Positions 28,533 through 44,748 of a stretch of DNA of 64,000 nucleotides are shown piece after piece; within the stretch, counting starts at the first letter, position 1; each line of letters begins with the position of its first letter. The notes under the pieces are model-generated. The model had not been told where the DNA came from. It was given only the letters and a program-made list of their open reading frames with translations, and searched no databases. Both the position numbers and the translations under genes were made by a program. The DNA comes from Oscillatoria sp. FACHB-1407 (GTDB lineage Bacteria > Cyanobacteriota > Cyanobacteriia > Elainellales > Elainellaceae). The stretch spans positions 62,001 to 126,000 of the forward strand of contig NZ_JACJSA010000005.1 of assembly GCF_014697545.1 (NCBI RefSeq), in the 5' to 3' direction.

Positions 28533-28868
28533 CGGTTAAAACCACAGTTACAACGGTTTAAACAAAACCTACATCGGTTTGAACGCGAGTTACTTTCGTT
28601 TGAACGATTGCAGCTAATGCTTATATCTTTCTAGCTTTTGCTTAAACGAAACTTATACTTGTTTGAACGTGAGTAACTCTGATTCAAACGATTGCAGCTA
28701 ATGTTTATATCTTTCTAGCTTTTGCTTAAATGAAACTTATACTTGTTTGAACGAGAGTTACTTTCGTTTGAACGATTGCAGCTAATGCTTATATCTTTCT
28801 AGCTTTTGCTTAAACAACGCTTATACTTGCTCGAATCAGCGTTACTCCAGTTCAACCTTTTCTAACTT
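28533..28868 (+). repeat. 21-bp tandem array with an 84-bp higher-order unit
   Basis: Sixteen consecutive 21-bp units. The first unit begins CGGTTAAAACC and later ones TCGTTTGAACGATTGCAGC, ATGCTTATATC, TTGCTTAAACG and TTGTTTGAACG. From unit 4 on the types recur in a fixed four-unit order, giving an 84-bp superperiod: GATTGCAGCTAATG occurs at 28606, 28690 (ATGT variant) and 28774. Read forward, the first units encode Leu-rich heptads (RFERELL-like), but later units contain in-frame stops. It is therefore not a gene now. The 28297-28983 gap contains this array, R2 and the REP hairpin, and no gene. Confidence 0.9.
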
Positions 28869-28935
28869 GCTTTCAACGATCAACGAGTCGCGATTACCCC
28901 AAAGGGAGAACTGCTTCGCACCACCACTGCATTCC

Positions 28936-28968
28936 AGATCTGCGACTTCTTCGAGAAGTCGCAGATCT
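28936..28968. repeat. REP hairpin, distant copy
   Basis: A 33-bp perfect palindrome with arms AGATCTGCGACTTCT / AGAAGTCGCAGATCT around the loop TCG. The 15-bp arms are identical to those of the three copies around the REP-associated transposase gene at 41.4-42.2 kb. It stands between the 21-bp array and the stop codon of the small gene at 28984, where it could serve as a 3' hairpin for that minus-strand gene. Confidence 0.9.
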
Positions 28969-40643: not shown

Positions 40644-41291
40644 CTACTGACGCAACTCCAAAAGCCGCTGAGCCTCCGTCAAGCGGTTCTGAGCCTCAAT
40701 GTAGTCGGGATCAAGTTCGATTGCCTGTTGATAAGCGGCGATCGCCTCGGTCAGATTTCCCTGCTCAACCAATGCCTGTCCTAACCGAACATAGAGAAAT
40801 GGCTGTTCTGGAGAGAGTTCGATGGCACGACGAAAATTGGCGATCGCCTCTGGTAGCTCACCTTGATCCGCGAGTGCCATAGCTAACCTCATATAAGATG
40901 CTGCCTGATCGGGGTAAACCTCAACAGCACGACGGAGGCTAGCGATTAACTCTGCCTGCTCCGCTTCGGGGTTTGCCCGCAGCGGAGAGTCAGGAGGCAC
41001 ATAGGTATCAACAGCGTTTGGGTCGAGTTGCAGAGCGAGCAAAATCTGATCTGCTGCCTCCACCCGTCTACCTTGAGCTTGGAGTGCGTTGGCTAGATAA
41101 ATGTATGCAGGCACAGCATTTGGGTCACGTTCAAGAATGCTACGAAAAATGCGTTCGGCTTCATTGTAGTTGCCTGCGGCTTGAGCCGCGTTGCCCTGTT
41201 GATATAGGTCATCAACATTTGGGGTTGTAGAGCAGGCAGGAGTCGCTACAAGAAGCAGGGTCAGTAGGGGAGGAAATAACCAACGCAGCAT
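40644..41291 (-). CDS. TPR-repeat lipoprotein
   Basis: About 215 residues. The signal peptide begins MLRWLFPPLLTLLLVATPAC, with the lipobox Cys at about residue 20. Then come about five TPR-like units: ANALQAQGRRVEAADQILLA, AMALADQGELPEAIANFRRA and GQALVEQGNLTEAIAAYQQA, each ending in an LDP or LSP pattern. It is probably an envelope scaffold. The open frame extends 102 bp upstream to 41393, but that part is the translated REP hairpin and would bury the signal peptide, so the ATG at 41291 is used. It is divergent from the REP-associated transposase. Confidence 0.85.
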   Translation of the reverse strand: MLRWLFPPLLTLLLVATPACSTTPNVDDLYQQGNAAQAAGNYNEAERIFRSILERDPNAVPAYIYLANALQAQGRRVEAADQILLALQLDPNAVDTYVPPDSPLRANPEAEQAELIASLRRAVEVYPDQAASYMRLAMALADQGELPEAIANFRRAIELSPEQPFLYVRLGQALVEQGNLTEAIAAYQQAIELDPDYIEAQNRLTEAQRLLELRQ

Positions 41292-41315
41292 AGAAGGTCT
41301 GGAGCTTGGTGAAAC

Positions 41316-41348
41316 AGATCTGCGACTTCTTGAAGAAGTCGCAGATCT
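41316..41348. repeat. REP hairpin, left flank of the transposase
   Basis: A 33-bp palindrome with arms AGATCTGCGACTTCT / AGAAGTCGCAGATCT and loop TGA. It lies about 45-75 bp upstream of the transposase start, and just upstream of the divergent TPR lipoprotein start. Coordinates may be off by one or two bases. Confidence 0.9.
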
Positions 41349-41391
41349 AAGCAGCGATTTTGTATTCCTGGGAACTTTAAGAGCGAGGTTC

Positions 41392-41976
41392 ATGATCGAT
41401 GCAATGGCTAAACAGAAAACCTTTCCCCAGACAGGACAGTTCTATCACATCTACAATCGGGGCAACAATCGTCAAAGCATCTTCTTTGAACGCGAAAACT
41501 ATCTGCATTTTCTGCGCTTAATTCGTCAGAATCTAATCAATAACAATGTGGATGTAGCGGCATATTGTCTCATGCCCAATCACTATCACCTGTTGGTCTA
41601 TCTACAAACAGACGCATTATCAGAGGCAATGAAGTCTTTGTCGTTATCCTACACAAAGGCAATCAACAAACGGTTTAATCGAGTCGGTGCTCTATTTCAA
41701 GGTCGATTTCAGAAGATTCTGATCACAAATACTGAGCACCTGATTACTCTGACCCGTTATATTCACCTGAATCCAGTCAAAGCTGATCTTGTAAAGCAAC
41801 CAGAAGAGTGGGAGTTTTCCAGTTACCTGGAATATGCAGGATTACGAAATGGCAGTTTGCCAAAGCTGGAATGGGTTAAGGAGCAGATTGATGGCGATCG
41901 CGCTTATCAGATGTTTTTGGAAGATCACCATTTGCCTAACACTCCAGTGTTGAAGGGGTTGATGTTAGACGACTAG
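41392..41976 (+). CDS. REP-associated tyrosine transposase (Y1 HUH family)
   Basis: A 194-residue single-strand DNA transposase/endonuclease of the IS200-like TnpA-REP group. The HUH pair is in CLMPNHYHLLVYLQ (about 62-75). The catalytic Tyr is probably in SLSLSYTKAINKRFNRVG (about 86-103), followed by the family signature GALFQGRFQKILI and TRYIHLNPVKA. It is predicted to nick and join REP hairpins. Identical hairpins lie on both sides, and the stop codon overlaps the right one by two bases. The start may be the ATG at 41404 (MAKQKTFPQ). All motifs are intact, so it may be active. Confidence 0.92.
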   Translation: MIDAMAKQKTFPQTGQFYHIYNRGNNRQSIFFERENYLHFLRLIRQNLINNNVDVAAYCLMPNHYHLLVYLQTDALSEAMKSLSLSYTKAINKRFNRVGALFQGRFQKILITNTEHLITLTRYIHLNPVKADLVKQPEEWEFSSYLEYAGLRNGSLPKLEWVKEQIDGDRAYQMFLEDHHLPNTPVLKGLMLDD

Positions 41977-42007
41977 ATCTGCGACTTCTCGGAGAAGTCG
42001 CAGATCT
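41975..42007. repeat. REP hairpin, right flank of the transposase
   Basis: A 33-bp palindrome with the same 15-bp arms and loop CGG. It begins within the transposase stop codon (TAG at 41974-41976). Confidence 0.92.
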
Positions 42008-42164
42008 GACCCACCTCACGAAAACAGTTTGCCCCAGAAGCCTTTGTCTTGCTTCTCAAGTTGCTCAATCTGGTTGAGGGCATAGCGATACCTCTCTGTA
42101 TTGCCCTGTTGTTGATAAATTTTGCAGCTTCTCGATAATCAGCAAGTGCCCCTTGATTGTCACC
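42008..42164 (-). pseudogene. duplicated, frameshifted 3' end of the caspase-TPR gene
   Basis: These 157 bp closely match 42211-42367, the last part of the caspase-TPR gene plus its downstream bases, with a handful of substitutions. One base is missing (GATAAATTTTG against GATACAATTTTG), which breaks the frame of the TPR end. It is bounded by REP hairpins on both sides, so hairpin plus gene end form a tandem duplication with a 203-bp period. Confidence 0.9.
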
Positions 42165-42177
42165 TAGACAAGTAGCT

Positions 42178-42210
42178 AGATCTGCGACTTCTTTGAGAAG
42201 TCGCAGATCT
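42178..42210. repeat. REP hairpin downstream of the caspase gene
   Basis: A 33-bp palindrome with the same 15-bp arms and loop TTG. It lies just past the stop codon of the minus-strand caspase gene and may act as its 3' hairpin. Confidence 0.92.
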
Positions 42211-42218
42211 GACTCACC

Positions 42219-43784
42219 TCACGAAAACAGCTTGCCCCAGAAGCCTTTGTCTTGCTTCTCAAGTTCCTCAATCCGGTTAAGGGCATAGCGATACCTCTCT
42301 GTATTGCCCTGTTGTTGATACAATTTTGCGGCTTCTCGATAATCAGCAAGTGCCCCTTGATTGTCACCCAAAGCCAATTTGGCAGCCCCGCGATTGTTGT
42401 AATCATCAGCATAGTCCGGTTTTAAGCGAATGGCTTCGTTGTAGTCTTCGATAGCCCCTTGATAGTCGCCCAAAGCCCGTTTGGCAACTCCACGACCAGC
42501 ATAAGCCTTGGCATAGTCTGGCTTTAAGCGAATGGCGTCGGTGTAGTTGGCGATCGCTCCTTGTTTGTTGCCTACTCTAGATTTCTCTAATCCGCGATTA
42601 AAGAACTCCTCGGCAGTGAGAGATTCGGTCGGGGTTTGAGTAGCAGGTTCAGGTTTGGGGGGCTGAGGGATGACTGATGGTGTGGGTACTGCGATCGACG
42701 TTGCTGATTGGGTAAATTGGGCTGCAATGTCTTGCTCAATCGGAGTAATATCAGCATCACGCAAGCCCAACAACTGTTGCAGGGTTTGTAGAGCGTCTCG
42801 CGCTTCCTCTCCGAGGGGATATTCATGTTTGGCTTCAGCTAACAGAGCTTCTTGATACTTTTGCAAGTTAGCAATGCGTTCTCGATAGGGGCGAAAGACT
42901 TCGGCTTCAATATCGTCGGTTTCAGCCGGGGTCAAGCCCAACTGCTGTCGCAGAGTATTCAGCACGGCTCGACCTGCCGGACGGATTGTGTCTCCGGTGG
43001 CATATTTCGTCACCATCTTGCGATAGCGCAATCGGGGATTAGCCACCCTTGCCTTTGACAAAATGATTTCAAAGCCCAAATCCTTGAGGCAGATTAATTT
43101 GGGAGTCATGTTAGGGGCAGTTGCCCGCACCCGATCAAAGGCATAGTGGTGCAGTTCTTGCACCGAGATTTGTCCGTCTTCGTTGACATCGCCTGCTCCA
43201 GTTTCGATCCCTTCCACCAGATAGCGGGTATAGAGCGACAGTTCAGAGTCAGCTAGTTCTAAGGAATATTGGGTTGAGCTAGAGGAGGTCAACACCACCC
43301 GTCCTTCGGCTCCTAATTGACCTGATACATCCACTGAGCCATCATCTTTTAATCGCAGTTGCGGATCAAATGCCCCACTGAAGCAGCAATCGAGAATGAT
43401 GGTCTGGCGTCGGGCACGACTGTTATATAAAACGTCATGGACAAAGCGAGCAGCCACCGCCGAGGAACGAATCAAATCACCCCTGGTATTGTTTTGAGTG
43501 ATTGGAGTTGCAAAGTAGAGATTGCCGTTGTCGTCTTTGATGCCATGTCCAGAAAAATAAAGCAGCACCAGATCATCTTTAGTGCAATTTGAGAATAGAG
43601 TCTCAATCTCATATTGCATGGCTTGTGGCTCAGGATTGAGCAAGGGTTTCACCCTATCAAATTCACCCAGTTCTGAGTTTTGCAAGACACGCCGCATGGC
43701 TTCCACATCCCTAACTGCCGCAGGTAAGGGGTTTAAGCCTGAGTGATAGTTACTAACGCCGATGAGTAATGCGATCTTTGCCAT
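42219..43784 (-). CDS. caspase-family protease (orthocaspase) with TPR tail
   Basis: A 521-residue protein. The N-terminal caspase p20-like domain (about 1-240) begins MAKIALLIGVSNY; the catalytic His is in LVLLYFSGHGIKDDNG (about H75) and the Cys in TIILDCCFSGAFDP (about C132). DVNEDGQISVQELHHYAF resembles an EF-hand-like p10 loop. A middle helical region with two similar segments (GLTPAETDDIEAEVFRPYRE, GLRDADITPIEQDIAAQF) leads to three TPR units (AIRLKPDYAKAY, GDYQGAIEDYNEAI, GDNQGALADYREAA). It probably cleaves proteins after basic residues in a regulated death or stress response. It follows an EACC1-like gene on the same strand by 57 bp. Confidence 0.9.
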   Translation of the reverse strand: MAKIALLIGVSNYHSGLNPLPAAVRDVEAMRRVLQNSELGEFDRVKPLLNPEPQAMQYEIETLFSNCTKDDLVLLYFSGHGIKDDNGNLYFATPITQNNTRGDLIRSSAVAARFVHDVLYNSRARRQTIILDCCFSGAFDPQLRLKDDGSVDVSGQLGAEGRVVLTSSSSTQYSLELADSELSLYTRYLVEGIETGAGDVNEDGQISVQELHHYAFDRVRATAPNMTPKLICLKDLGFEIILSKARVANPRLRYRKMVTKYATGDTIRPAGRAVLNTLRQQLGLTPAETDDIEAEVFRPYRERIANLQKYQEALLAEAKHEYPLGEEARDALQTLQQLLGLRDADITPIEQDIAAQFTQSATSIAVPTPSVIPQPPKPEPATQTPTESLTAEEFFNRGLEKSRVGNKQGAIANYTDAIRLKPDYAKAYAGRGVAKRALGDYQGAIEDYNEAIRLKPDYADDYNNRGAAKLALGDNQGALADYREAAKLYQQQGNTERYRYALNRIEELEKQDKGFWGKLFS

Positions 43785-43841
43785 GGGTGCCGGGATGATG
43801 AGAAGGCGTTTGGGTGTTGGGTTGCGCTACACTTCACCCAC

Positions 43842-44216
43842 CTACGAGTTGACAAAATCTTGAGCGGCTTTGACCGCCGCTTCCAGTTCTTCGCGGCTAT
43901 GGGCAGAAACTTTAAGCTTTCTACCGTTGGCTTCAACCTCTAGTTCAATAGGCTTTCCACCGAGGCGATCGCCCAAAAAACCAAACAGCTTCTTAGCATT
44001 GGCGACACTAACCTCTGCCAGGAGCCAACCGGGTATAAATCCACCCAAAGCTTTGTTGCCTTCGGGGGGGTTGGGGTCAAGGACGCGATCGACTTCATCT
44101 ACCTCGTCTAGGTCTTGCAGTTCGGCGAGGAGTCGCTGTGCCTGTTCGTCGCGTTCTTCGGGGTCGAGGTCAGAGTCAATAAAGGCGATCGTGAGTTTGA
44201 TAGCGTCGGAGAACAT
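43842..44216 (-). CDS. EACC1-like small protein paired with the caspase
   Basis: About 124 residues from the ATG at 44216. A helical N-terminal part is followed by an acidic linker (LQDLDEVDEVDRVLDP), a Gly/Pro segment (LGGFIPGWLLAEV), then a helix-plus-strands module FLGDRLGGKPIELEVEANGR and ending LEAAVKAAQDFV. This matches my knowledge of effector-associated constant component 1 proteins, encoded beside caspase-like or trypsin-like effectors in predicted conflict systems. Assignment is by pattern and neighbour, not by search. It is transcribed 57 bp before the caspase gene and should be co-expressed with it. Confidence 0.7.
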   Translation of the reverse strand: MFSDAIKLTIAFIDSDLDPEERDEQAQRLLAELQDLDEVDEVDRVLDPNPPEGNKALGGFIPGWLLAEVSVANAKKLFGFLGDRLGGKPIELEVEANGRKLKVSAHSREELEAAVKAAQDFVNS

Positions 44217-44401
44217 AGGGTTATTACGGGGTTGAGGAGTCACTGAATTCTCTCTGTTTATAAGTTAACTCAGTGATTCCTCTGGTGAACTAGCAGTGTG
44301 CGAGGTTTTCTGCCAGTGTTTACCGTTGGGATGATCCGGTGCTGCTTCCCAAAAGGCTATCCCCCCGTCTGCTCAATTTCACGTGTCCTGATGCCAAAAA
44401 G

Positions 44402-44604
44402 AACTCATTGGTTACGAATGAGAACTATTTCGTTACGTATGAGTTCTTCTTCCCTACAAATGAGAAGTCTTTCGTTACGTATGAGAACTATTTCGTTACG
44501 TATGAGTTCTTCTTCCCTACAAATGAGAAGTCTTTCGTTACGTATGAGAAGTCTTTCGTTACGTATGAGTTCTTCTTCGCTACAAATGAGAACTATTTGA
44601 TTTG
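44402..44604 (-). repeat. 21-bp tandem array upstream of the EACC1-caspase pair
   Basis: Nine 21-bp units plus a partial one, of three types: AACTATTTCGTTACGTATGAG-like, AAGTCTTTCGTTACGTATGA-like and TTCTTCTTCCCTACAAATGA-like. All end in ATGAG. Both strands are open in several frames, giving seven-residue repeats (Leu-Ile-Arg-Asn-Glu-Arg-Leu type on the minus strand), an effect of 21 being a multiple of three. The rest of 44217-44748 holds a short GC stem (CTCCCCTTAG/CTAAGGGGAG type, about 44633-44650) and no credible gene. Confidence 0.88.
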
Positions 44605-44748
44605 AGAACACGACACATGCGACTCCTCCCAACCTCCCCTTAGTAAGGGGAGGTGCCGTAGGCGGTGGGGTTAGGTGTAACCCCAAAATCACAAACCTAA
44701 AATCCAAAATTAGGTTGGTACGATCGCCACCAATAACCCCCGTCGGAA

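Follow-up and report, generated by a model that had tools for sequence, protein, structure and literature searches.

In classical REPs, the 5' GTAG tag is important for cleavage, and with the enzyme of S. maltophilia a reversal of the loop severely affected cleavage (PMC8266576). For subclass 2.1 of the REP-associated tyrosine transposases (RAYTs), no REP-like sequences have been reported. Its members carry C-terminal extensions, have a median length of 238 aa and show the motifs NH[YF]H, FQ and Y[IV]HLNP, while subclass 2.6 of the Bacteroidetes comprises short proteins with atypical, weaker flanking structures that have genomic copies (PMC6006769). TIRYT genes are flanked by inverted repeats, some of which are self-complementary and repeated in the genome (PMC3733652). 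In the papers cited here, recognition and spread of the repeats by a RAYT were tested only for GTAG-tagged systems.

Here, we describe a RAYT locus in the window, by which we mean the whole 64-kb stretch of DNA that was analysed. The locus resembles the REPtrons with TnpA_REP of E. coli and Stenotrophomonas (PMC6006769, PMC8266576) in that an HUH-Y1 protein with a fold nearest to 4er8 is encoded by a low-copy gene, which is flanked by cognate, dispersed palindromes. Unlike the REPs of these organisms, the hairpins of the window have neither a 5' GT[AG]G nor a bulge. They are perfect and symmetric, with 15-bp arms and a 3-nt loop (15-3-15), and the loop varies and inverts. Owing to this symmetry, both strands present the same stem. 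As the GTAG tag was sought and is absent, the hairpins of this family are not classical GTAG REPs.

The locus shares with TIRYT/TIRtron (PMC3733652) a RAYT-like protein between inverted repeats without GTAG, some of which are self-complementary and repeated. The window protein, with NHYH, FQ and YIHLNP, also fits subclass 2.1 (PMC6006769), a comparison made by motif pattern alone. It differs from subclass 2.1 as described by its length of 194 aa and by a dispersed family of 33-nt hairpins, in which a GGGGWSAS consensus is lacking. Several Bacteroidota relatives carry YIHQNP and are, compared by description, similar to subclass 2.6 (PMC6006769), but the hairpins found here are strong and perfect, in contrast to the weaker structures described there. 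HUH-Y1 chemistry and hairpins on both sides are likewise features of IS200/IS605 elements (IS608, ISDra2), from which the locus is set apart by a unit that is single-copy as found, by conserved right-hand neighbours, and by a fold and profile nearer to RAYTs. The closest known kind is the TIRYT/REPtron continuum. A literature search with the arm sequences returned no paper that deals with repeats, as judged by title or abstract, and in the literature, which was incompletely covered, we found no account of a fixed, untagged 15-3-15 class or of repeats of this kind diversifying along with their enzyme. Novelty is thus claimed at the level of a variant only.

The transposase gene and the hairpins of the window

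The locus and the hairpins of the window consist of the following features (a dot stands for no strand).

28936-28968, strand., dispersed hairpin copy with loop TCG; perfect pairing, surrounding stretch duplicated elsewhere in the genome
41316-41348, strand., H1, left flanking hairpin with loop TGA; by pairing and folding
41392-41976, strand +, RAYT (HUH/Y1 REP-associated tyrosine transposase), 194 aa; NF047646 84.5 bits, Pfam Y1_Tnp, fold 4er8 with Z 17.2
41975-42007, strand., H2, right flanking hairpin with loop CGG; by pairing and folding, overlaps the RAYT stop codon
42008-42164, strand -, second copy of the caspase-TPR gene tail (3' end), frameshifted; by sequence comparison
42178-42210, strand., H3, hairpin with loop TTG; duplicated along with the gene tail
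42219-43784, strand -, gene with caspase domain and TPR, context outside the element; right-hand neighbour kept with the RAYT in a related genus

All four hairpins read AGATCTGCGACTTCT-NNN-AGAAGTCGCAGATCT, with 15 of 15 bp paired, a total length of 33 nt and a 3-nt loop. The earlier note had described identical 15-bp arms on both sides of the transposase gene, a right hairpin overlapping its stop codon, and further copies at 42178-42210 and 28936-28968. All of this is correct, including the coordinates: H2 starts at 41975 and the stop codon of the gene, TAG, occupies 41974-41976. No other perfect 15-3-15 hairpin occurs in the window and none in 20 first-order Markov shuffles, while the 14-nt arm core gives 8 matches compared with 0.42 expected. 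Folded singly as single-stranded DNA, H1 (loop TGA) and H2 (loop CGG) reach -16.2 kcal/mol (z < -7). None of the four hairpins has a T-tract, and intrinsic terminators were rejected for them on this ground. H1 ends 43 nt upstream of the RAYT start codon, and the hairpins at the locus are intergenic where checked. On the left, the listed start of a TPR gene ORF (41393) is probably wrong, as an ATG at 41291 opens a lipoprotein-like signal, MLRWLFPPLLTLLLVATPACS (41291-41393); with this start, H1 would fall outside the gene. Degenerate short repeats, TTCTAGCTTTTGCTTAAA and GTTTGAACGA, adjoin the hairpin at 28936 (28700-28870), and this stretch recurs, nearly unchanged, at other sites of the genome (L001, L004).

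The protein scores above the cut-off of the NCBIfam model NF047646 (REP-associated tyrosine transposase), which is matched by all 35 homologues as well, and it matches Pfam Y1_Tnp. Both the HUH motif and the single tyrosine in Y-x-x-x-N-P are present; among the 35 homologues H64, Y123 and N127 are invariant and H66 nearly so. For the predicted structure (pLDDT 90), the top match in Foldseek and VIA-align is 4er8, the crystal structure of E. coli TnpA_REP (Z 17.2, 159 aligned, rmsd 2.8), compared with a Z of about 10 for IS608 and ISDra2 of the IS200/IS605 family. A defence-system library gave no match for the RAYT. Based on the NCBIfam score, the Pfam match, the invariant residues and the predicted fold, the gene is an intact RAYT, which would be expected to be active. 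The palindromes on its two sides also occur dispersed in the genome, which is the defining property of a REPtron. Most probably, the locus is such a REPtron, in which a RAYT gene that stays in place lies between copies of the repeat it acts on, here a perfect, untagged hairpin of 33 nt.

Hairpin copies in the source genome and in relatives

All genome counts come from pattern searches in which a degenerate pattern admits variable stem positions. The earlier note had proposed a check on copies elsewhere in the genome, and in the 8.1-Mb genome there are indeed 13 exact copies; when up to 3 mismatches to the degenerate pattern are allowed, the number rises to 28, with 0 matches for reversed-pattern controls. 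Full pairing is seen in 24 of the 28, and the stem types GCG, GCA, CCG, CCA and TCA differ by paired, i.e. compensatory, changes. A second RAYT in the genome (56% identity) has a hairpin of the CCA type 8 bp past its stop codon. Most copies are solo and each hairpin is symmetric, so that its orientation is undefined, which bears on the REPIN/BIME concept of two inverted REPs as the mobile unit. At three hairpin sites the flanks are 92-94% identical over about 600 bp, and two more sites share part of them. Several copies thus lie in duplicated host sequence, and not every copy represents a transposition.

A 5' GT[AG]G tag at the foot of the hairpin was sought in the flanks of the 28 own copies and of 50 copies from a sister genus, and no GTAG consensus was found. 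The own-genome flank consensus has 7.5 bits versus 5.0-6.0 in shuffles; since this is only slightly higher and comes partly from the duplicated sites, no flank tag is claimed for this genome.

Among the relatives sampled, copy number follows the presence of a close RAYT. Among 60 genomes searched, 9 contain any copy and 51 none, and two relatives with a RAYT of 79-81% identity carry 141 and 95 copies. In a class sample of 214 genomes, the exact arm type occurs in 3 of 3 genomes with a RAYT at least 67% identical versus 5 of 211 others (Fisher 3.5e-5), where the cut of 67% was picked post hoc with the data already seen. The association is weaker when any RAYT match at 1e-40 is considered (4 of 28 versus 4 of 186 carry the exact stem, p 0.011); in these samples some genomes are incomplete, and the counts ignore relatedness. 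G016, from the same genus as the genomes with 141 and 95 copies, has no RAYT match at 1e-20; it holds 16 copies within 3 mismatches, of which 3 are fully paired. In this one same-genus genome without a close RAYT, most copies are thus no longer fully paired. G032 has 121 copies compared with these 16, and the best-matching ones listed are nearly all perfect. G021, G088 and G159, like G016, show a few copies and no RAYT match at the threshold. The earlier note had named as evidence against its reading a hairpin that is missing from the rest of the genome but occurs in relatives free of the enzyme. The pattern observed is a different one, with copies throughout the genome and none or few in relatives without a close RAYT.

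Probable mobility of the hairpins and position of the gene

Alignments of orthologous sites from the sister genus show that G026 has a hairpin at sites that are empty in G032 or G016. In the two cleanest pairs the apparent insertions measure 48 and 46 nt; each comprises the hairpin plus about 7-11 nt at one end and 4-6 nt at the other, with limits that vary with the alignment. The other empty sites are mostly messier indels. Fifty copies from this genus share the flank consensus AGCGCTC-[hairpin]-TgCCCCTT (9.35 bits versus about 3.0 for shuffled flanks), and the mobile unit there is thus probably longer than the hairpin. Larger palindromes were also seen. At L157, L160, L164 and L153 of G026, several hairpins are enclosed by an inverted repeat of greater size, AATGGCACTGA...TCAGTGCCATT, which may be a composite MITE. 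At positions 2439-2491 of L024, a hairpin sits exactly in the middle of another palindrome with 25-bp arms, AGGGGTTC...GAACCCCT, which may indicate an insertion into a hairpin.

Between G026 and G032, changes are rarer in the arms than in the flanks (5 of 390 versus 82 of 1556, p 3e-4). Among 13 orthologous pairs there are 4 whose two loops are exact reverse complements of each other, and three of these four would otherwise need three point changes, which suggests an inversion of the hairpin in place. This has consequences for a claim of the earlier note, which took constant arms with variable loops (TGA, CGG, TTG, TCG) as a sign that the enzyme reads the arms. The pattern is real, but on its own it does not prove such reading, since self-correction of the palindrome would likewise be expected to yield loop inversions at orthologous sites and compensatory changes in the arms. 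Template switching or cruciform processing might then account for most of the arm constancy, in place of selection for recognition by the enzyme. The reverse-complement loops and the origin of arm variants as paired changes speak in favour of this. Self-correction leaves unexplained, however, why the hairpins are dispersed, why stem and RAYT sequence are tied to each other (see below), and why in G016, where a close RAYT is missing, most copies have lost full pairing. As the main cause of the constant arms we regard it as rather unlikely; it is compatible with a REPtron, and both could act together.

For the REPtron, we infer that the RAYT binds, cuts and moves the hairpins on single-stranded DNA. 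It would most likely bind the hairpin in a single strand, e.g., the lagging-strand template, cut beside it via Tyr123, and join the hairpin together with a short flank to new sites, while its own gene would remain in place. The two cleanest comparisons in the sister genus give a length of 46-48 nt for the inserted piece. The stem sequence would serve as a lineage-specific signature, and the variable loop would be tolerated.

The surroundings of the gene bear on the question of whether it moves. On a contig of 12,885 bases from a related genus (L024), the two genes that come after the RAYT are those of the window, with order and orientation conserved; they encode a caspase-domain protein (47%) and a protein of 133 aa (68%). 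The left neighbour differs between the two loci. A caspase neighbour of the RAYT is also found at G037 and L031. Right-hand neighbours common to the window and a related genus make a recent transposition of the complete unit unlikely, and the RAYT gene appears stationary. H1-rayt-H2 was found only once in the genome. The recently active unit that the earlier note had seen is therefore unsupported for the source species, given these conserved neighbours and the fact that some copies are duplications of host sequence. H3 itself stems from a tandem duplication, in which a hairpin and a 157-bp piece of the caspase-TPR gene (3' end) are present twice and which has since diverged by about 5%. The two copies agree at 182 of 191 positions, with no difference in the arms, and the copy of the gene tail adjoining the RAYT is frameshifted.

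The same evidence makes it improbable that H1-rayt-H2 is an ordinary IS200-like insertion sequence with the hairpins as its ends and the other copies as solo ends or remnants. Such an element would agree with hairpins that stand close to the gene on either side at many loci, with the HUH-Y1 chemistry common to IS200/IS605, and with a DNA similarity between the window and the locus of G026/G032 that starts and stops inside the hairpins. It is hard to reconcile with one unit copy and a 56% paralogue versus 28 hairpins, with right-hand neighbours conserved in another genus, and with a profile and fold nearer to RAYTs than to IS200.

As a side observation, a caspase-domain gene lies near the RAYT at 5 of 53 RAYT loci versus 3 of 109 other loci fetched, which is too weak to claim an association. 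The five loci are the window (42219-44243), L024, L031, L122 and L217, with the gene 3' of the RAYT and convergent where inspected. Common descent, or the large number of caspase genes that cyanobacteria carry, may explain this proximity. Further to the right, at 44298-44707, short tandem coding-like repeats (units such as LRMRTISLRMSSSSLQ) coincide with overlapping ORFs on both strands.

The layout in other lineages

Hairpins within 150 nt on both sides of a RAYT relative were found at 13 of 28 cyanobacterial loci, compared with 6 of 793 random positions (0.8%); with the threshold applied, 10 of the 28 lack any flanking hairpin. In a second cyanobacterial sample the figures were 6 of 24 versus 0 of 586 random positions, and for non-cyanobacterial RAYT loci 16 of 60 versus 0 of 1920 random positions in the same loci. 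These frequencies, far above those at random positions, together with a copy number that follows the RAYT and the lack of a T-tract at any of the four window hairpins, make it very improbable that the hairpins are host elements (terminators or protein-binding sites) among which the RAYT lies by chance, although they can form strong hairpins and are intergenic where checked at the RAYT locus.

The REPtron reading is in good agreement with what is seen across lineages. Against it stand the missing GTAG tag, the few copies in genomes that gave no RAYT match, the copies within duplicated host sequence and the 10 cyanobacterial RAYT relatives that lack a flanking hairpin. The commonest flanking geometry is a 15-bp arm with a 3-nt loop, and cyanobacteria, Bacteroidota and Chloroflexota share this geometry with lineage-specific sequences, e.g., arms AGATCCCCGACTTCT in another lineage. 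Left and right stems within a locus have a mean identity of 91%, whereas stems differ between lineages. Stem similarity correlates with RAYT identity (Mantel r 0.54, 0 of 5000 permutations), where the p values overstate the evidence because related loci lack phylogenetic independence. Since related RAYTs in many bacteria each have a differently spelled 15-3-15 hairpin, the enzyme seems to have diversified in concert with its repeat. The view of the earlier note, a REP-transposase with a cognate repeat family, is well supported by the 28 copies, by the paralogue with its variant hairpin, by a copy number that tracks a close RAYT in the relatives sampled and by the recurrence of the layout in many lineages.

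As a tentative generalisation that may hold, a widespread group of RAYTs in Cyanobacteria, Bacteroidota and Chloroflexota would use untagged, strand-symmetric 15-3-15 hairpins of 33 nt, with specificity given by the stem instead of a GTAG guide, and with enzyme and stem coevolving. If true, REPs would be recognised in a distinct way in a group that has been described as lacking them, and some of the short palindromic repeats known from cyanobacterial genomes would be matched to an enzyme. With its constant geometry and with stems that differ by lineage, such an untagged class would also offer many natural enzyme-repeat pairs for finding the residues that read the stem.

Lineage-specific stem types are spread through the genomes to which they belong and are missing, or almost missing, from others. 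The CCCCG-type stem, GATCCCCGACTTCT, has 18-45 copies in four RAYT genomes versus 0 and 1 in two others. For the ACTTACGAAG type with the stem ACTTACGAAGTTT, three Mucilaginibacter genomes hold 33, 45 and 102 copies versus 0 in two others, and a third lineage-specific stem type reaches at most 7 copies, in its best genome.
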